From contig NZ_JAFQQZ010000045.1 in NCBI RefSeq assembly GCF_017410345.1, forward strand, positions 62,001-126,000: a DNA stretch of 64,000 bases. Direction: 5' to 3'. The stretch comes from Methanobrevibacter sp. GTDB taxonomy: Archaea; Methanobacteriota; Methanobacteria; Methanobacteriales; Methanobacteriaceae. The translations under genes were made by a program, and so were the position numbers. The notes under the pieces are model-generated. The model saw nothing but the letters and a program-made list of their open reading frames with translations, searched no databases and was not told the DNA's origin. Numbering within the stretch: position 1 is the first letter of the stretch; every line of letters starts with the position of its first letter. Below, in pieces: positions 14,508 to 24,024 of this stretch.

Positions 14508-16862
14508 CTAGAATGGTATAAGCACATAATTCTTAGGCTCATTATAGGATTTGGTGTTCCAATTATTGATTTGACCCAAATTGTTTCTGCGGCTTGTTGC
14601 ATCGGCAGTATACCAAGTTTGGGATATTGGATCATAAACCTGAGCCCATACATGTCCAGTATTCAATCCACTAGCGAACTTACAGTTCTTTGCATGGGAA
14701 TATCTTGCATAAATACCTACAGACCTGCACATTGCTACAATCAAGTTAGCCTTGTCACAGCAATTACCCTTTCTAGAGCTTAAGGTACCTGATGCACCTT
14801 TTAATGAATTTGTATAGAAACTGTATCTGATATCATCCCTTACAAATTCAAAGATAGCATTTGCCTTAGCCTTAGGACTGGACAATCCTGCGGTTAATTC
14901 CTTAGCTTTCTTTTTAATTGCATCATTGAGTGCAGACTTACCGCCTGTTTTCAAGTATTTTGCAAATTCATCTGAATCAAATATCTGCCTATAGTTCAAA
15001 ATCTTACCATTTTGACTAATGGAAATGGAATATCCTCCTCTAACATAACTGGTTTTAACTGTTACGTAAGAAGGCAATTTTTTATTTCTGCCGTAATAAT
15101 CCAATGCGGCAGTGAAAGCATAAACATAAAGGTTTGCTTCCATTTTTCCTAAACTAGTTGGCTTATAATTAGGAATACGCTTATTGGCATTAACAAAATC
15201 TGTAACATTTTTTGCTAAATTAAGGTATTCTGTCTTATTTAATTTACCACTAATTTTACTTCCAGAGGAATTATAATTATTTGATAGATCCTTAATAACC
15301 ACATTTGCATTTGAACCTTTTTTAATATTGGTTAAAGCTCCTGCCATAAGGTATGCAAATTCATCAATTGTGTATTTCTTATTGTCAATAGTGACACTAT
15401 AAGATTTATTCAGTATATTAATGTATTCTACACGGATTTTTAAATCCCTGGCTGCAGTGATAATTTTTGATATACTGACTGAAGGGTCAACTATTTTAAT
15501 GGTTTTACTCAATTTAGATGAATTATAATATTTATTTCCAGCATAACTTACTACAATTGGATAAGAACCTTTTTTTAGGCTCATAGTTAAACTAACTCTT
15601 CCTTTGGAATCAGTAGTTTTATTATATGTTTTATTGTTAAGTTTTATAACAACTTTTTTATTTGCTAAAACTTTACCTGCAGAATTCTTTAAAGTAATTA
15701 CATATTTAGATCCTTGACCTATATTAGTACCAGAATCTTTTAGGGAAGTAGTTCCTTTTTTAACTGTAAGATTAGTGCTTGCTGAAGATTTGATGAACAT
15801 ATCATCACCAGCAAAACTAATTTTTATTTTTGCAGTTCCTAAAAAATTAATAGGAATGGCTACTTTTCCTTTAGAATTGGTTTTTTTAGTATAAGTTTTA
15901 TTTTTATCAGTTATTTTCACAACAACTGTCCTATTTTTTACAGCACCATTATTTGGTATCTTCCTAAGGGACACTATAAAATCTTCTCCAAACTTAAGAT
16001 TTGAAGTAGCAGTTATTTTAGTTCCACATTTAATAGGTTTTACAGTTGTTTTAGTGGAAGATTTATTTAAATTATCATTTCCAGCATAACTAATTATAAT
16101 GTAAAAACTCTCTTTAGAATTTATCACAAGTTTTGCTTGACCTTTAGAGTCTGTAACTTTTTTATAAGTTTCATTATTCCTTTTAGGGATAACAAATTTA
16201 ATTGTTTTCCCACGAATAACAGAACCGCTATTCTTATTCTTTAATGTGACAATTAAAGAAGTTGATCTAGGAACAGTACTATTAGTAACTTTTAAACTAG
16301 TAGCACTTTTTAAAACTTTAATGCTTGAACTTAATCTAGAAGCATTGTAAGAATTATCTCCTGCAAAACTAAATTTAATTTTATAGATTTTAGCACTATT
16401 TAAAATAAGTTTTGCTTGACCTATTGAGTTAGTAGTCTTAACATAAACTTTATTATCAATAGTGAAAGAAATCTTCTTACCACTTAATACTTTACCATTC
16501 TCATCTTTTAATGTAACAACAACAGGATTTCCAGCATATAAAGTAGTTCCGGATACTTTTAAAGTTGTAGCAACTTTATTAGTATTTCCACTATTTTGTG
16601 TTGGCTGAGAGTCATCGAAAATAGCTTCGTGACTATCATCACCCTCACCTGAAATTAGGCTGGAATCTTCTTCATTAGATAATTGATTAGCATCAAAATT
16701 ACCAACTGACTCTTCAGATTCGGAATCGATAGAATCACTAACAAGATTATTGTTATCTGGATTATCTGACATATCCATGGCATCACTTGCAGATACTCCA
16801 CCTATTACAATAAAGAATAAGCAGAATATTGCCAAAAGCAATGCTCTTTTCTCTAACGAAAT
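14508..16862 (-). CDS. Secreted Ig-repeat / pseudomurein-binding / transglutaminase-fold peptidase
   Basis: 784 aa if started at ATT 16862. Signal peptide (ISLEKRALLLAIFCLFFIV...SAS), a Ser/Asp/Asn-rich spacer, four Ig-like repeats of about 90 aa (each ending near FAGDNSYNASRL-type motifs), two pseudomurein-binding-like repeats (about 480-620), and a C-terminal transglutaminase-like domain with Cys701 (KGNCC), His737 (GHVWAQ) and Asp754 (ADATSRRN). This matches pseudomurein endoisopeptidase/autolysin design (Pei, peptidase C71-like) and predicts cell-wall anchoring and cleavage. No ATG/GTG/TTG lies between the upstream in-frame TGA and TTG 16841, whereas GAGGTG sits five bases before ATT 16862. 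Paralogue at 22216-24024. Confidence 0.85.
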   Translation of the reverse strand: MSLEKRALLLAIFCLFFIVIGGVSASDAMDMSDNPDNNNLVSDSIDSESEESVGNFDANQLSNEEDSSLISGEGDDSHEAIFDDSQPTQNSGNTNKVATTLKVSGTTLYAGNPVVVTLKDENGKVLSGKKISFTIDNKVYVKTTNSIGQAKLILNSAKIYKIKFSFAGDNSYNASRLSSSIKVLKSATSLKVTNSTVPRSTSLIVTLKNKNSGSVIRGKTIKFVIPKRNNETYKKVTDSKGQAKLVINSKESFYIIISYAGNDNLNKSSTKTTVKPIKCGTKITATSNLKFGEDFIVSLRKIPNNGAVKNRTVVVKITDKNKTYTKKTNSKGKVAIPINFLGTAKIKISFAGDDMFIKSSASTNLTVKKGTTSLKDSGTNIGQGSKYVITLKNSAGKVLANKKVVIKLNNKTYNKTTDSKGRVSLTMSLKKGSYPIVVSYAGNKYYNSSKLSKTIKIVDPSVSISKIITAARDLKIRVEYINILNKSYSVTIDNKKYTIDEFAYLMAGALTNIKKGSNANVVIKDLSNNYNSSGSKISGKLNKTEYLNLAKNVTDFVNANKRIPNYKPTSLGKMEANLYVYAFTAALDYYGRNKKLPSYVTVKTSYVRGGYSISISQNGKILNYRQIFDSDEFAKYLKTGGKSALNDAIKKKAKELTAGLSSPKAKANAIFEFVRDDIRYSFYTNSLKGASGTLSSRKGNCCDKANLIVAMCRSVGIYARYSHAKNCKFASGLNTGHVWAQVYDPISQTWYTADATSRRNNLGQINNWNTKSYNEPKNYVLIPF

Positions 16863-16935
16863 TTTTTCACCTCAATACACCAAAAAAATACAAATTTAAA
16901 AGTTTTAAAAAAATAACTCTTAAAATTAAAATATC

Positions 16936-16951
16936 TTTAAATATATTTTCT
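16936..16951 (-). promoter_or_regulatory. BRE/TATA core shared with the 22216 gene
   Basis: Minus strand reads AGAAAATATATTTAAA, identical over 16 bases to the plus-strand element at 22094-22109 upstream of the paralogous gene. It is 74 bases from the proposed ATT start, leaving a leader of about 45-50 bases. Confidence 0.6.
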
Positions 16952-17759
16952 TAAGGTACTAATGCAATAAAAAAATATGAGTTCCTTAATAAAAATTAGA
17001 AAAATTTTAATTATTATTAGACTTGCTAAAATATTAAAATCTATTAAAAAATCTTTATTAAATGAAACAAAAACTCCTAGTATTTTATTAAAAATTTATT
17101 CAATAAAATAATAGAAATAAAGATAATTCAACTAATTTTAGATAATATTTTTTTAATGTTATGTATAATTAAATGTTTAATAGCATATAAATCTTTCCCA
17201 TGAAAATTTTAAAAAATAAGAACTATATACTCTTTAAATTAACTTATTACCCTTAAAATAACTTTTTTCCATTTTAAAAAATAAAAAAATTATTTAAAAT
17301 ACTTTTTATAATGAATTTGAAAGTTATAGATAAAAACATGGTTTAAGAATAAATAAAAATAAAAAGCGATTAATAAATCGAATTAAGATAAATAAATGGC
17401 TAAAATTAATTATTTTATTAAAATTTAATAGGATAATAATTGAATAATCAAAATATAAACAAATATTTGTTATTTAACCTTTAAAAGAACAATAAATAAA
17501 CTTACTAAATAAATTAATCCAAATTTAATAAAGTTATATAAAAAATCAATAAAAATCAATTAAATAATGAAAAAAACTGATAATATTTATCCTTTATATT
17601 ATTTATAAGCTATTTATTAAAGTTTATTTAAAAAAATAACCGTATAAAAGCGATTTAGATTAAATAATGAAAAAAATTAAATAATTTTAGAAAATAAGAA
17701 GAATTTTATGAAAATTCTTAAAGAAAAGATAAAAAATTTTGGAATTGATTTTGACAAAA
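16952..17759. other. Long A/T desert
   Basis: About 800 bases of A/T-rich DNA between the secreted protein (minus, leaving leftward) and the CDF transporter 3' end (minus). No ORF with SD, RNA gene, or repeat array recognised. One of the longest apparently empty stretches in the window. Confidence 0.45.
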
Positions 17760-18668
17760 TTATTCGTCAAGCTGTTGGTCATGGTCATATTCCAAGCCAA
17801 CCGGACATGCATGAACGGTTGCGCCGTGAATGACATCTATCTCATCAACAACCTTGTTCTGAACCAAGTGAACAATCTTGTGAGACTCATCCAGGCTCAT
17901 GTCCGGAGGAAGCTCAACATGGAGGGATACGGTAGCGTAAGAGCCTAAATAGTTCACCCTTACATCATGTGTGCCGCAAACCTTGTCGACCGAATTGGAA
18001 ACATTTATGATCTTATCGACCAGGTCCTGGGACGGAACCTTTCCCATGATGTTGTTCAGGTTCTCACGGGCAACATCAAAGGCAGTCTTGAAAATCAGCA
18101 GACCGATTACAAACCCAATGAATGGGTCCAATTGAGGATATCCGTATTGTGCAATCATCACACCAAAGAGAATGGCCAATGAAGCGAAAATGTCAACCCT
18201 TTGATGCTTTCCATCCGCTATGATTGCAGGACTGTTTACACGCTGGCCTAACTTAATGATGTATTGGCTCAAGCTGAAATGGGTAATCACCCCAATGATT
18301 GCCATCACAACTGCCAATGGGCTTGGGATTGTAGTTGTGCCTCCAAAGAACAGTCTGTCAATGGCACCGGTTATGATCTCATATGCAACAATTGCCAGAA
18401 ATATCACAATCAGCAAACCTGCAATCGCTTCAGCCCTTCCATGTCCTAATGGATGCTCCTCATCTGCAGGCCTGCTTCCAATCCTGAATCCTATATAAGC
18501 TATAATTGAAGTGGTTATATCTGAAAATGTATGTGCCCCTTCGGATATAAGGGCATAACTTCCAGACATTATCCCTACAGCAATGTTGAATATGGTCAGG
18601 AATAGATTTCCTGCAATGGCTACATAAAGGGCCCATTTTCCTATCCTTTCTCTATCTTCCCTTTCCAT
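17760..18668 (-). CDS. Cation diffusion facilitator (CDF) metal exporter
   Basis: 302 aa. Proton-coupled efflux of divalent metals (Zn/Fe/Mn/Co type). Six membrane helices in the first 200 residues; transport-site motifs ISEGAHTFSDI (helix 2, HxxxD) and a helix 5 with IIADGKHQRVDI (HxxxD), giving the two-helix metal site, and HPLGHGRAEAIAG in the loop. The C-terminal cytoplasmic domain carries His residues (THDVRVN, HVELPPD, HKIVH, VHACPVG) and ends YDHDQQLDE. Complete. Monocistronic; metal specificity cannot be read from sequence. Confidence 0.93.
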   Translation of the reverse strand: MEREDRERIGKWALYVAIAGNLFLTIFNIAVGIMSGSYALISEGAHTFSDITTSIIAYIGFRIGSRPADEEHPLGHGRAEAIAGLLIVIFLAIVAYEIITGAIDRLFFGGTTTIPSPLAVVMAIIGVITHFSLSQYIIKLGQRVNSPAIIADGKHQRVDIFASLAILFGVMIAQYGYPQLDPFIGFVIGLLIFKTAFDVARENLNNIMGKVPSQDLVDKIINVSNSVDKVCGTHDVRVNYLGSYATVSLHVELPPDMSLDESHKIVHLVQNKVVDEIDVIHGATVHACPVGLEYDHDQQLDE

Positions 18669-18910
18669 TTTATCTCATCAATAATTTATTTAATTTATAA
18701 TTCTTTCAATTTAATAATATAAAAATATTACTTTTCTGAATAAAAATAAGCGAATATTAATACTTATATAAATATTTTTATTATTTATAAGTATTTTATA
18801 ATTTTTAATATATATCTTTTATTAAAATGAAGCTTGAAAATAAAAAAAGAATCTAAAAGATTTTAATATCCAAACCTTTTAGAACATTATGAAATTGAAC
18901 ATCCGATTAT

Positions 18911-20026
18911 CTAGTAATCAAGATCCTTTAGGATATCCATTGCCCTTTCAATGTTTTCATATGAGTTTGCATAGGACATTCTCACATGCTCCTCTCCAAG
19001 ACTTCCGAATGGAGCTCCAGGGACTGAGATGACTCCTGCCTCTGCAGCTGCCTTGACGAAATCCATAGGCCTTTCCACTTTAGGGAAAACGTAAAATGCA
19101 CCTTGGCAGTCCACGGTTTCATATCCCATGTCATTCAAGCTTGAAACAATGAGGTCACGTCTTCTTGAAAACTCATTCACCATCATTTCTACAGAGTCTT
19201 GAGGTCCGGTAAGTGCTTCAATAGCTCCAACTTGAGCAATGGAACTTGCATTAGCAGTACAATATTGATGAACCTTAAGCAGGTTTTCAGTCACCTCATC
19301 ATTTGCAACCATATAACCTATTCTAAGGCCAGTCATTGCATAGGTTTTTGAAAATCCGTTGATTGTCACCACATTGTCACAGTATTCCGCTGGAGAGTGA
19401 TTTTTTGTGCCATAAATGATCTTTTCATAAATCTCATCTGAAATGATATAGAAATCATGGTCTGTTGCCAAGTCTGCTATCCCCTTGATGTCCTCCTTAT
19501 CCATAACCGCACCGGTTGGATTGGAAGGGGAATTGATTATCAATCCTTTTGTATTCCTATCGATCTTTTCCTGAACATCCTCCACTTTCATCTTGAATTC
19601 GTTTTCCATAGGGGTTGTAACTTCCACAACATTGGCTTCAGCCAATTGGACACAAGTGTAATATGATAAGAATCCTGGATTTGGAACCAATACATTATCT
19701 CCCTTTTCAAACAATGCCTGTGCAGCATCGTATAATGCCTCGCTTGCACCGGAAGTCACTATGATGTTTTCAGCATCTGTCTTGATCTTGTTGTCTTTGG
19801 CAAGCTTGTCTACGATAGCTTCCCTAAGTTCAATCAATCCCTTGTTTGAAGTGTATTTTGTAACTCCCTCATCAATAGCTTCTTTCATGGCCTCTTTAAT
19901 GTTTTCCGGGACATCAAAGTCAGGCTCTCCAATTCCCAAATTGATTGCATCTGGATTTGTGACTTCAAACATTTTTCTAATTAGAGATAATTCTATGGTT
20001 TCAACTCTTTTAGCAGAATTTAACAT
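18911..20026 (-). CDS. Class I/II aminotransferase, aspartate-aminotransferase family
   Basis: 371 aa PLP enzyme. The lysine lies in NGFSKTYAMTGLRIGY (SKT motif); NSPSNPTGAV and SDEIYEKIIY (PLP-ring Asp and phosphate-region motifs) are intact, and the C-terminal substrate Arg is in EEHVRMSYA. Length is normal for the I-gamma aspartate/aromatic aminotransferase group in archaea. Start ATG behind AAAGGTGTTATC. Likely amino acid biosynthesis; the exact amino donor is undetermined. Confidence 0.9.
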   Translation of the reverse strand: MLNSAKRVETIELSLIRKMFEVTNPDAINLGIGEPDFDVPENIKEAMKEAIDEGVTKYTSNKGLIELREAIVDKLAKDNKIKTDAENIIVTSGASEALYDAAQALFEKGDNVLVPNPGFLSYYTCVQLAEANVVEVTTPMENEFKMKVEDVQEKIDRNTKGLIINSPSNPTGAVMDKEDIKGIADLATDHDFYIISDEIYEKIIYGTKNHSPAEYCDNVVTINGFSKTYAMTGLRIGYMVANDEVTENLLKVHQYCTANASSIAQVGAIEALTGPQDSVEMMVNEFSRRRDLIVSSLNDMGYETVDCQGAFYVFPKVERPMDFVKAAAEAGVISVPGAPFGSLGEEHVRMSYANSYENIERAMDILKDLDY

Positions 20027-20147
20027 GATAACACCTTTTAAAATAAAAATAAAAAATTTCTTTGATAATAATCATAATACAATTAATATATTATAAGTAA
20101 TATTTAATATATTTTTAATCAAATTTTAATTTGTTTTTAATGAAACT

Positions 20148-21848
20148 TTAATTGCATGCACCACAATTATAGCATGGCCCATCCTCACACCATGGAGTCT
20201 GCTCGCTTGTCCCTATCTTTTCATATTCAGACTTCAAGAACTCCTTGCTTACGCTGACATCAATGCAGTCCCACGGTAATTCATCTTCCAAATCATAGCT
20301 TGGAGCATTTTCACCCCATTCCCTAATGCTTATCTTCTCATTCAAGGACCTTTCAATCAGATTTCCAATCTCCCTATCTCCACAGGACAGGACATATTGC
20401 ATCAGTCCCATCTTGGCGCTGTCAAACTTGATATCCAATCCCTTCAGATTCTTTTTGAGATATCTTATCTTTGACTTGATCTCCTTCATGTCATAGTTTT
20501 CCCATTGAAGTGGGGTATGAGGTTTCGGTATGACCGGATTGACACTGAAGCTGATTGAAACTTTGGATTTCTTGCCTTTTTTGATGGATGAAATGGCTTC
20601 AGTTTTTGATTGTGAATTTGATGTTGATTTAATTGAATTGTCGATTGATTTGCTTGAAGATTTTGAATTTGAATCAATATTATGCTTCATGGAATCAATT
20701 TGCTTCATCATGTCTGCAAGTTCTTCAATATCTTCCTGGGACTCGTAGGGCAAACCGATTAAAAAATACAATTTAATATTAAAACCCAGTCCAATTGCAT
20801 CGCTTATCACCCTGAAGACATCCTCATCGCTGATGTCCTTATTGATTCTCCGCCTCAGCGAATAGATTGATTCCGGAGCTATTGTCAATGTCTTCAATCC
20901 GCTTGACTTGAGAGCAGTCAGTGTTTCCCTTGTAATGGACTCAATCCTCATCGAAGGGGTTGATACCTGAAATCCCCTTTCCCTTAATCCTTCTGTCAAT
21001 TCATTTATTTTGGAATAGTCAGATACAGCTGCACCAATTAGGGATATTTTGTTCAATCCGGTGTTTTCCCTTGCTTCCTCTGCAATAGAAAAAAGGTCTT
21101 CCAGTCCTGTTTCCCTAAGAGGCCTATACATGTAACTTGACATGCAGAACCTGCATCCTCTTGTACAGGCTCTTGAAACATTCAATAGGATGGAATTGGA
21201 AAATGCGGGAATGAAATCCTTATCATCGGTTTCGGTGACAATCGGATAGGTCAGATGATATATGCTTTGCATATCATCTGAAAGGGCTATCCTTGTTTTA
21301 TTGTTGAACTGGGATATGTATAGTCCTTCAATGTCCAAGAATTGAGACAAATCTCTTTTACTATCTGTTCCGTTCTTTCTATTCCCTTTAGGAAGTTGTG
21401 ATGAAGAATACAAATCCAAAAAGTCGTATAGGACAGCTTCAGCCTCTCCAACAACAAAGATGTCTATGAAATCTGACAAAGGCAGAGGATTGGAGCTTGC
21501 ACAAGGCCCCCCTGCAATGATCAAGGGGTCCTTTTCTGTCCTATCTTCCCTTCTTAAAGGGATATCGGCCTCCCTCAAGATTTCCAATACATGGAAATAG
21601 TCCTGCTCGTATTGAAGTGAGAATGAGACAATGTCAAAATCAGATAATGGACTGTTGGTTTCAAGAGAGCGGACGGAAGGGTAGATTATCCTCTCACAGT
21701 AAGTGTCCTCCCTTTCATTGATATAATTATAAATTATCTGATAGCCCAAAGAACTCATTGCAGTCTTATAGACATTCGGATAGACCAATCCAAACCTTAT
21801 GTCTGCCTTCAATGGATTCTTTATAATTATATTCTTTTCTTCAAACAT
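20148..21848 (-). CDS. Radical SAM protein with B12-binding-like N-terminus (TIGR03960-like)
   Basis: 566 aa. N-terminal Rossmann-like region (GLVYPNVYKTAMSSLGYQII, DFDIVSFSLQYEQDY, IIAGGPCASSNP) resembles the B12-binding-like domain of the uncharacterised family I know as TIGR03960. The radical SAM cluster motif is CTRGCRFCMSS, followed by a TIM-barrel with the IAPES strand. The C-terminus has an extra Cys set (WCEDGPCYNCGACN), perhaps a second cluster. A roughly 35-residue Ser/Asn/Lys insertion near residue 395 is unusual and low complexity. SD GAAAGGA. Substrate unknown. Confidence 0.85.
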   Translation of the reverse strand: MFEEKNIIIKNPLKADIRFGLVYPNVYKTAMSSLGYQIIYNYINEREDTYCERIIYPSVRSLETNSPLSDFDIVSFSLQYEQDYFHVLEILREADIPLRREDRTEKDPLIIAGGPCASSNPLPLSDFIDIFVVGEAEAVLYDFLDLYSSSQLPKGNRKNGTDSKRDLSQFLDIEGLYISQFNNKTRIALSDDMQSIYHLTYPIVTETDDKDFIPAFSNSILLNVSRACTRGCRFCMSSYMYRPLRETGLEDLFSIAEEARENTGLNKISLIGAAVSDYSKINELTEGLRERGFQVSTPSMRIESITRETLTALKSSGLKTLTIAPESIYSLRRRINKDISDEDVFRVISDAIGLGFNIKLYFLIGLPYESQEDIEELADMMKQIDSMKHNIDSNSKSSSKSIDNSIKSTSNSQSKTEAISSIKKGKKSKVSISFSVNPVIPKPHTPLQWENYDMKEIKSKIRYLKKNLKGLDIKFDSAKMGLMQYVLSCGDREIGNLIERSLNEKISIREWGENAPSYDLEDELPWDCIDVSVSKEFLKSEYEKIGTSEQTPWCEDGPCYNCGACN

Positions 21849-22093
21849 GCTACAGTCCTTTCATTAGTTCTTTTTATTGAAATCAATATAGAATTTGTTT
21901 TTACGAATATAATAAATTTTACTATGCTTTTTGTTTGAAAATCTTATTTCTTGATGATGAAATTTACGAAATAAAATCAATATAATAACTATAATGTAAA
22001 TTATAATCTCATTTTAATATTGATATCAAAATATGAGTAATATATAAGCTTTTTTATTTAATTAAGGCTGTGTTTTTGCACAAAATCACAATT
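21849..22093. other. Divergent intergenic region
   Basis: Left part of a 366-base gap between the radical SAM gene (minus) and the secreted transglutaminase gene (plus). A/T-rich; no gene seen. The plus-strand promoter core follows at 22094. Confidence 0.4.
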
Positions 22094-22109
22094 AGAAAAT
22101 ATATTTAAA
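22094..22109 (+). promoter_or_regulatory. BRE/TATA core shared with the 14508-16862 gene
   Basis: AGAAAATATATTTAAA, the same 16 bases as found on the minus strand at 16936-16951. It predicts transcription start near 22130-22135 and a leader of about 80 bases that contains a strong SD (GGAGGAG, 22186-22192) serving only a three-codon ORF (ATG AGG TGT TAA, 22203-22214), then GAGGTG and ATT. Confidence 0.6.
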
Positions 22110-22215
22110 TCAAGAAAGCCAAATATGAATTAACTAATCTTTAAAATGAAAAATAATCATTTTAAGGATAGTTTTGAAAATGAAAGGAGGAGAATAATTA
22201 AAATGAGGTGTTAAG

Positions 22216-24024
22216 ATTAGAAATAAAGCAATAGTCTTGACTTTATTGGTAGTGCTGTTCTTCAGCATAAGCAGCATTAGCGCACAGAGCCTAAACGCTG
22301 ATGATGTTTATGATGGGGGTAAAATTCTTAAATCAGATTCCTCATCAGGAAAATTAAGTGCAGCAACTGAAGTCAAGGCGAATTCAACAAAGAAAACAAA
22401 GAAGACAAGCACAACAAAAACTGCAAATGCAAGAAAGAAAAATACTACAAGCGTTAAAAAAGCTACAAATACAACAAAGAAAACTACTACAAGCGTTAAA
22501 AAAGCTACAAATACAACAAAGAAAACTACTACAAGCGTTAAAAAAGCTAAAGCAAAAGAGAATACAACAACAGTAAACAAGAAGACTTTGGCAAAGACAT
22601 CAACAAGCTTTATGAACTATGTGGAAAAGAATGGAAAGTTCCCTAAAGTCAAGATCAGCAATAAGAACTATTCCAATACAGAATACCTGTATCTCATGAC
22701 AAAGGCTGTTGAGAACAATTCCAATTCAAAGATTGAAATAAATAGGAAGCTGGTTAAAAAACACAACAATACAAATTCCAAATCAGTGAAGGGCACATTG
22801 AATAAGACAGAGTATGTTAAAATAGCTGGAAAAACCAGAAAATTCATTGAAAAGAACAGAAGGGCTCCTAATTGGGTTTCTTCCTCTAAGGGAAACATTC
22901 CTTACAATCAATTGATTCTTTCATACAGCAAATGTTTGGATTTCTTCAATAAGAACAATAGGATGCCCAATTCAATAAGGCTTGATGACTTGGATTTGGA
23001 TAAGATCAATTCAAAGATCAATAAGAACAAGACCAAATCCTCTTCAAATGCTAGCGTAAAGTCAACTAATAAAACAGCAACTAAGAGCGTTAAAGCCAAT
23101 GCAAGCAAAAACAAGACCACAAGCAATAGTGTAAAGACAAATACAAGCAAGGCAAAGAACACTACAGCAAATACTGCATCCAATAAAGATGACAATGGAG
23201 CTGAAAACGGCAGCTTGGTTGAAAGGACTCTGAATAATATCCATAACATATTGAATAATATTTTAGACCGATTGGATCCCAGCAAATATACCGTGGATGT
23301 GACCAAATCTGATGAAGGCAACGTTAAATTGAATACAAGCAAGATCAATGTGGACATAAATGGAAAGTCATCTGTAAATGTGCAAGTCTCTGCAAAGAAT
23401 ACGACCAAGAAAACCAATACAAGCAGCACCAAAAAGACAAACACAACAAAAACAAGCACCAAGAAAACCAATACAAGCAGCACCAAAAAGACAAACACAA
23501 CTAAAGCAAGCGTTTCCAAATCTGCATCCAAGACTGTGAGTGCGAACAAGACTTCAATCAATGAGGCATTGAAGAAATACCTGAAAAGCACCAAAAACTG
23601 TCAGGTGAAGAATAAGGCAATTCAGAATCTTGCAAAAACATTGACTTCCAGTCTTAAATCCGATTATGAGAAAGGGAAAAAGATATTCAATTGGGTTCGT
23701 GACAATATCCAATACAAGAAATATCGAAACACCAGAAGAGGGGCTGTAAAGACTCTTCAGACCAAAAAGGGAAACTGCGTTGACCAAAGCCACTTGCTGA
23801 TTGCATTGTCAAGGGCCTCTGGAATTCCTGCAAGATATGTGAAAGGAGGCAACTGCAAGTTCACTACTGGCTATGTTTCCGGACATATCTGGACTCAAAT
23901 GTACATAAACAACAAATGGGTGGTTGCAGATACAACAAGCTCCAGAAACACCTTGGGAAAAATTAGAAATTGGAATACAAAAAACTATAAGCTTTATGGA
24001 GAATTCAGTTCCATAAGCTTCTAA
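22216..24024 (+). CDS. Secreted pseudomurein-binding / transglutaminase-fold peptidase
   Basis: 602 aa from ATT 22216 (signal peptide IRNKAIVLTLLVVLFFSISS...AQS). Then a Thr/Lys/Asn low-complexity spacer with 14-residue repeats (TSVKKATNTTKKTT), two pseudomurein-binding-like repeats (FMNYVEKNGKFPKV..., KTRKFIEKNRRAPNW...CLDFFNKNNRMPN), a second Ser/Thr/Lys-rich spacer with an 18-residue repeat, and the catalytic domain with Cys521 (KGNCVDQ), His557 (GHIWTQ) and Asp572 (ADTTSSRN). Same catalytic end as the 14508 gene (NWNTK...ISF vs NWNTK...IPF). Predicted pseudomurein isopeptidase/autolysin. No ATG/GTG/TTG between the in-frame TGA at 22204 and TTG 22237; GAGGTG is five bases before ATT. Confidence 0.85.
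   Translation: MRNKAIVLTLLVVLFFSISSISAQSLNADDVYDGGKILKSDSSSGKLSAATEVKANSTKKTKKTSTTKTANARKKNTTSVKKATNTTKKTTTSVKKATNTTKKTTTSVKKAKAKENTTTVNKKTLAKTSTSFMNYVEKNGKFPKVKISNKNYSNTEYLYLMTKAVENNSNSKIEINRKLVKKHNNTNSKSVKGTLNKTEYVKIAGKTRKFIEKNRRAPNWVSSSKGNIPYNQLILSYSKCLDFFNKNNRMPNSIRLDDLDLDKINSKINKNKTKSSSNASVKSTNKTATKSVKANASKNKTTSNSVKTNTSKAKNTTANTASNKDDNGAENGSLVERTLNNIHNILNNILDRLDPSKYTVDVTKSDEGNVKLNTSKINVDINGKSSVNVQVSAKNTTKKTNTSSTKKTNTTKTSTKKTNTSSTKKTNTTKASVSKSASKTVSANKTSINEALKKYLKSTKNCQVKNKAIQNLAKTLTSSLKSDYEKGKKIFNWVRDNIQYKKYRNTRRGAVKTLQTKKGNCVDQSHLLIALSRASGIPARYVKGGNCKFTTGYVSGHIWTQMYINNKWVVADTTSSRNTLGKIRNWNTKNYKLYGEFSSISF
22444..22549 (+). repeat. 42-bp tandem repeat in the secreted peptidase gene
   Basis: Unit starts ACTACAAGCGTTAAAAAAGC at 22444, 22486 and 22528, two and a half near-perfect copies with period 42 (14 codons). 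In frame, so copy changes would lengthen or shorten the wall-spanning spacer. Confidence 0.9.
23404..23511 (+). repeat. 54-bp tandem repeat in the secreted peptidase gene
   Basis: Unit starts ACCAAGAAAACCAATACAAG at 23404 and 23458; two copies, period 54 (18 codons, TKKTNTSSTKKTNTTKTS-like). In frame within the second Ser/Thr/Lys-rich spacer. Confidence 0.9.

Follow-up and report, generated by a model that had tools for sequence, protein, structure and literature searches.

Where do the two secreted pseudomurein-active proteins encoded in this part of a Methanobrevibacter sp. genome begin? The window, a 64,000-nt stretch of DNA, holds two genes, A and B, for which a preliminary description had proposed ATT start codons. 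It had noted that no ATG, GTG or TTG lies in frame between the last stop (TGA) and a TTG inside the signal peptide, that GAGGTG stands exactly 5 nt 5′ of an in-frame ATT in each gene, and that only the ATT start gives a basic n-region (ISLEKR... and IRNKA...). All three details are borne out by the sequence. Around the proposed start, gene A reads ...TTGAGGTGAAAAA-ATT-TCGTTAGAG, and from the stop on TGA GGT GAA AAA ATT TCG; the corresponding stretches of gene B are ...ATGAGGTGTTAAG-ATT-AGAAAT and TGA GGT GTT AAG ATT AGA. The two paralogues were also called unlinked, a loose term given that they lie only ~5.4 kb apart. Coordinates for these genes, and for three further genes discussed below, are given in Table 1.

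Table 1. Features of genes A and B in the window, and other genes with ATT starts.
Feature	Position	Strand	Remarks
Gene A	14508..16862	-	784 aa counted from ATT; signal peptide, Big_3_5/Big_1 Ig-like domains, 2 pseudomurein-binding repeats, C-terminal transglutaminase-like domain
Gene A ATT initiation codon	16862-16860	-	next codon is the rare TCG (16859-16857)
Gene A Shine-Dalgarno GAGGTG	16873-16868	-	5-nt spacer to ATT; overlaps in-frame TGA
Gene A in-frame stop TGA	16874-16872	-	
Gene A first canonical in-frame codon TTG	16841-16839	-	7 codons 3′ of ATT; in signal-peptide hydrophobic core; rejected as start
Gene A leader block, ~30 nt (T-run, AGTGTATTGAGGTGAAAAAATTTCG)	16857..16887	-	ends at AUU UCG; spans leader, Shine-Dalgarno and start
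Gene B	22216..24024	+	602 aa counted from ATT; signal peptide, linkers rich in Lys and Thr, a pseudomurein-binding repeat, and a transglutaminase-like domain at the C-terminus
Gene B ATT initiation codon	22216-22218	+	column reads ATG in G006
Gene B Shine-Dalgarno GAGGTG	22205-22210	+	5-nt spacer to ATT; overlaps in-frame TGA
Gene B in-frame stop TGA	22204-22206	+	
Gene B first canonical in-frame codon TTG	22237	+	7 codons 3′ of ATT
Gene B transglutaminase-like domain	23590..24021	+	Cys-His-Asp in 13/13 aligned homologues
DUF89/ARMT1-like phosphatase	L108:7688-6831 (G000 C9)	-	ATT start
CbiO-type cobalt transporter ATPase	L134:8806 (G000 C33)	+	ATT behind GGAGG
Secreted CobN/Mg-chelatase-like protein, 1527 aa	L139:4638-58 (G000 C39)	-	ATT behind GGAGGT

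In Pfam, the two products have Transglut_core and pseudomurein-binding repeats (PF09373) in common, and the transglutaminase-like Cys-His-Asp triad (C63, H99, D114) is invariant among the homologues (n = 13). The Pfam family of the pseudomurein endoisopeptidases (Pei, Peptidase_C71), PF12386, has no match in gene A or B at E ≤ 0.001; its match in a homologue from a class-level relative (G037) is weak.

An ATT behind a Shine-Dalgarno sequence might arise by chance, which the preliminary description had judged unlikely for two paralogues. Genome-wide rates, calculated on 964 kb of the 1.84-Mb genome, agree with that judgement. Canonical starts behind GGAGGTG are most numerous at a distance of exactly 5 nt (125 cases in the 964 kb), as is ATG taken by itself, and the GAGGTG with its 5-nt spacer in genes A and B is the genome's own ATG optimum. 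We then surveyed non-canonical codons in long ORFs (n = 687) that had no canonical codon upstream or within the next three codons. At spacing 5, ATT, ATA or ATC accounted for 11/566, against 2/2860 for other non-canonical codons (Fisher P = 1.3e-7). This excess is absent at spacings of 1-4 and 6-12, as well as in the two other reading frames. A survey of the outgroup G039 yielded few Shine-Dalgarno-led genes.

Across all 1.84 Mb of the genome, the full motif GAGGTG-N5-ATT is present at 17 sites, versus 4 for a reversed control. Four of the 17 sites head long ORFs no more than 4 codons from an in-frame stop, and all 4 belong to transglutaminase/pseudomurein-binding repeat (PMBR) genes. One of these, on C37, has an ATG directly 5′ of the ATT. 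The paralogues at G000 C37:23750-23763 and L080 read GAGGTGAA-ATG-ATT, with the ATG 2 nt after the Shine-Dalgarno sequence and adjoining the ATT.

Aligning the 5′ ends of orthologues, a check proposed in the preliminary description, gave ATT at the start column in 12/12 orthologues of gene A and in 12/14 of gene B. Gene B has ATG in G006 and G011, in G006 exactly at the ATT column, so AUG is tolerated. Across three orthologue groups, third codon positions are the most diverged 3′ of the ATT, a pattern that is absent 5′ of it. Each of the 62 transglutaminase starts called as ATT or ATC by rule yields an n-region containing K or R (62/62), compared with 9/62 when the next canonical codon is taken instead.

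Two cytosolic proteins extend the comparison. The DUF89 (ARMT1-like) gene carries GTGATNNTATTAAAGT or a close variant, with an ATT start, in 11 genomes of the same genus, and the same column is ATG in 16 genomes from ten other genera; of the cases compared, it demonstrates most clearly that a start codon has switched. CbiO has ATT behind GGAGG (GGAGA in one case) in 13 same-genus genomes and in one other genus, and in families f2 and f3 and two further genera an in-frame ATG stands one or two codons 5′ of the ATT. The N-termini predicted from ATT for DUF89 or CbiO are (M)KVYYECGACFLR or (M)LEAR.

These alignments bear on three other accounts of how the genes are read. If translation started at a downstream TTG or ATG, in or past the signal peptide, the ATT region would be a conserved untranslated element; a TTG does follow 7 codons on in both genes, and gene A has a leader block that hardly varies. 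We consider this very improbable. The next canonical codon shifts among orthologues, and in 8 family members the hydrophobic core is over before any canonical codon appears, up to 215 codons on. Triplet periodicity runs from the ATT, the TTG has no Shine-Dalgarno sequence in front of it, and CbiO and DUF89 would lose 24 and 47 conserved residues, respectively.

Initiation could instead occur at the GTG within GAGGTG, followed by a −1 frameshift into the main frame, and in gene A the sequence GTG AAA AAA T could indeed slip to ATT TCG. Gene B (GTG TTA AGA TTA) lacks a slippery site, however, and members from f2/f3 and UBA587 read GGAGGCGGTAAAATTTCG, with no GTG. Because of these homologues and of gene B, and with G006 having ATG in place of ATT, we reject the frameshift as extremely improbable. 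Errors of assembly or sequencing that mask upstream ATG or GTG starts are conceivable in a source genome fragmented into 63 contigs, but the identical ATT recurs in 12 orthologues whose genomes are separate and include a closed chromosome of 2.94 Mb, and two isolates, M. cuticularis DSM 11139 and M. filiformis DSM 11501, likewise have ATT or ATC starts. We regard the probability of such errors as negligible. A TTG start and an upstream ATG put in another frame by sequencing error, the outcomes that the preliminary description had set against its own proposal, thus both fail. Three independent tests, on orthologues, on the coding signature, and on signal peptides, give the same answer. The proposal of ATT as the start of both genes is strongly upheld by the conserved column, by ATG at the identical column in one gene B orthologue and in the DUF89 outgroups, and by the periodicity from ATT on; judged on this comparative evidence, AUU initiation of genes A and B is almost certainly real.

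How widely the family shares such starts was examined in a tree with 106 different copies of genes encoding the transglutaminase domain, in which a few ATT/ATC starts were assigned by hand from context. ATT or ATC is found in 69 of the 106 (65 ATT and 4 ATC), and the rest comprise 25 copies with ATTTTG, 10 with ATG or TTG, and 2 with ATG-ATT. Families f1, f2, and f3 all contain lineages with ATT/ATC starts, and canonical starts lie mainly on scattered tips. Named records of Methanobrevibacter, Methanorudis, Methanoflexus, and UBA587 have ATT/ATC as well, and the class-level relative G037 has a family member with ATT behind a Shine-Dalgarno sequence. The 16-mer GAGGTGGAAAAATTTC is present in one copy each in 37/80 family genomes, and the family's ATT is kept across lineages of about 30-47% GC. 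The 25 copies of the ATTTTG subclass (L289-L351) read like GGAGGTAAAATATTTTGAAC, with the ATT at spacing 4 and the TTG at spacing 7. This subclass may start at the TTG, and it may represent a transition between AUU and UUG.

In named Methanobacteriaceae loci, the transglutaminase genes gave 38/125 for ATH versus 1/519. In the other genes of those loci ATT is not in excess (3/394 versus 13/2306, P = 0.42), and outside the genus the feature is therefore nearly confined to the transglutaminase family. Three viral relatives have the canonical starts ATG, ATG, and TTG, as might be expected if viruses need the enzyme in larger amounts, though the cases number only three. In Methanobacteriales, AUU, or less often AUC, is the conserved start of the secreted transglutaminase/pseudomurein-binding family, and probably the ancestral one.

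The codon after the start is also unusual. UCG is codon 2 after AUU or AUC in 31/62 of the rule-called family starts, compared with 1/387 of canonical Shine-Dalgarno-led starts. It is the rarest serine codon, making up 0.5% of the serine codons in gene bodies of the source genome and 0.4-4.8% in other sets. Homology alone explains this poorly, since drift would be expected at a synonymous site when genomes are AT-rich; the presence of UCG after half of the rule-called AUU/AUC starts implies selection on the nucleotides. Computational support thus covers the position of the start, its spacing and conservation, the enrichment within the family, and the conservation of UCG.

Upstream of gene A, the ~30-nt leader block is nearly invariant in 12 orthologues (the source genome has one difference), and the DNA further 5′ is diverged. 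The block is largely common to the C11 paralogue and is a possible translational operator. The leaders of genes A and B fold no better than shuffled sequences (z = −0.07 and 0.45), which gives no sign of a hairpin over the start, and among known RNA elements Rfam matches only a neighbouring tRNA. Translational coupling to a gene further 5′ finds no support: the nearest same-strand upstream gene is ~0.9 kb from gene A, the nearest one upstream of gene B is on the opposite strand, and a short ORF in the leader of gene B has no conserved length.

Two peculiarities of the translation apparatus were also considered as causes and rejected. All but 2 of 33 tRNA hits could be typed. Those typed are ordinary, CAU being the sole anticodon for Met and GAU the sole one for Ile, which speaks against a special initiator tRNA. 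The gene for aIF1 (SUI1), the archaeal gatekeeper, is present, so its absence is not the cause.

Our best reading, and one we hold to be likely, is that translation does initiate at AUU, helped by a strong Shine-Dalgarno sequence, and that this start is retained to throttle wall-acting enzymes. The strong GAGGUG, lying exactly 5 nt 5′ at a spacing normal for AUG in this genome, would position the ribosome at the AUU, which the ordinary initiator Met-tRNA presumably reads with a third-position mismatch. AUU would then act as a fixed brake, combining full binding of the mRNA with poor acceptance of the start codon. The rare second codon UCG perhaps deepens the low initiation, and the brake would keep the wall-acting enzymes scarce. 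Reduced initiation, selection for low dose, and any regulation via aIF1 are what we infer from these patterns in the sequence, from which retention of AUU by selection for low output seems reasonably probable.

Alternatively, AUU may be a true start without any regulatory purpose, if the ribosomes of Methanobacteriales accept AUU or AUA behind a strong Shine-Dalgarno sequence and ATG simply drifts to ATT. Within this genus, AUU or AUA starts (some of them ATA) are also found on the genes for CbiO, the DUF89 phosphatase, a glycosyltransferase, a CobN-like protein, and other secreted proteins, and they have become the starts of some ordinary genes; the ATG of gene B in G006 and G011 fits the same account. 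We nevertheless think it rather unlikely. ATT is not in excess outside the transglutaminase genes of the named loci, the family holds on to it over its whole range of GC content, and UCG stays at codon 2 despite its rarity. Moreover, a study of 36 prokaryotic genome groups recorded a single switch to AUU among 61,358 ancestral AUG starts (PMC5622118). Other non-canonical codons were seen in adhesin-like proteins. Two secreted ones have an apparent ATA 5 nt past GGAGGTG (L153:7994 and L100:12129, both on the minus strand; G000 C54 and C3), and one of 1497 aa from G011 has an apparent ACG start 5 nt past GGAGGTG (L189:6355-1865, minus strand).

The preliminary description had held that ATT would limit autolysin-like proteins. 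The concentration and age of AUU in a secreted wall-enzyme family agree with this. The presence of AUU on ordinary genes within the genus makes the link to autolysins incomplete, so AUU alone is no marker of a wall enzyme, and a limiting role is only suggested. Low initiation would suit enzymes acting on the wall of the cell that makes them, and the lytic activity of these enzymes is putative. Transglutaminases have been proposed to build wall cross-links (Leahy et al., PMC2812497). Cleavage of Ala-ε-Lys by the products of genes A and B is likewise putative, as they could equally be cross-linking enzymes (PMC2812497), and either activity could be dose-sensitive.

Several described proteins resemble those of genes A and B. 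The phage enzymes PeiW, PeiP, and PeiR (PMC4592898, PMC6189367) share the pseudomurein-binding repeats and a transglutaminase-like Cys-His-Asp domain; genes A and B differ in being chromosomal, in having signal peptides, and in starting with AUU, where the three viral relatives examined have ATG or TTG. Adhesin-like proteins of the TG type (group III) in M. smithii and Methanosphaera are similarly secreted, with Ig-like domains, a pseudomurein-binding repeat and a C-terminal transglutaminase domain (PMC11532034), and their start codons are unmentioned in that paper.

Among known weak starts, infC, which encodes IF3, begins with ATT in E. coli and ATC in Streptomyces under the control of IF3, and the GTC start of Streptomyces sigR is repressed by IF3 (PMC5472188). 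Genes A and B share the AUU of E. coli infC, where it is retained for lowering and regulating output. Unlike infC, which encodes the discriminating factor itself, they encode transglutaminase/PMBR proteins outside the autoregulated class, in an archaeal secreted wall-enzyme family that often has UCG as codon 2. IF3 is a bacterial factor, and with aIF1 as the archaeal gatekeeper here the analogy is indirect. The resemblance to infC that the preliminary description invoked holds for the AUU and the strong Shine-Dalgarno sequence at optimal spacing, and not for the product, which is no fidelity factor. By analogy, the family would work like infC-type weak starts. With sigR it shares a non-canonical start, which in sigR limits a dose-sensitive protein; sigR differs in using GTC, in being a bacterial sigma factor, and in that its limitation was shown experimentally, whereas limitation in this family is proposed from sequence. 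Tentatively, SD-N5-AUU-UCG could be a dedicated low-output element of Methanobacteriales, selected at the nucleotide level ever since the order arose, if not longer. Such an element would hold down pseudomurein-active enzymes and may be read by the level of aIF1 or by another translational regulator, as an archaeal counterpart to IF3-controlled AUU.

A literature search, with subscription journals mostly outside its reach, found no report of AUU starts in Methanobrevibacter, in pseudomurein proteins, or in archaea. The conserved AUU starts known so far belong largely to a handful of bacterial genes, infC among them; here, throughout an archaeal order, an entire enzyme family has this rare start as its norm. 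Gene callers restricted to ATG, GTG, and TTG will mis-start these surface proteins or truncate their signal peptides, which bears on methanogen surface proteins as targets for methane reduction. The family also offers a natural test of how strict archaeal ribosomes are about start codons and of how wall enzymes are dosed. The conserved AUU suggests that the cells deliberately hold back proteins that act on their wall.
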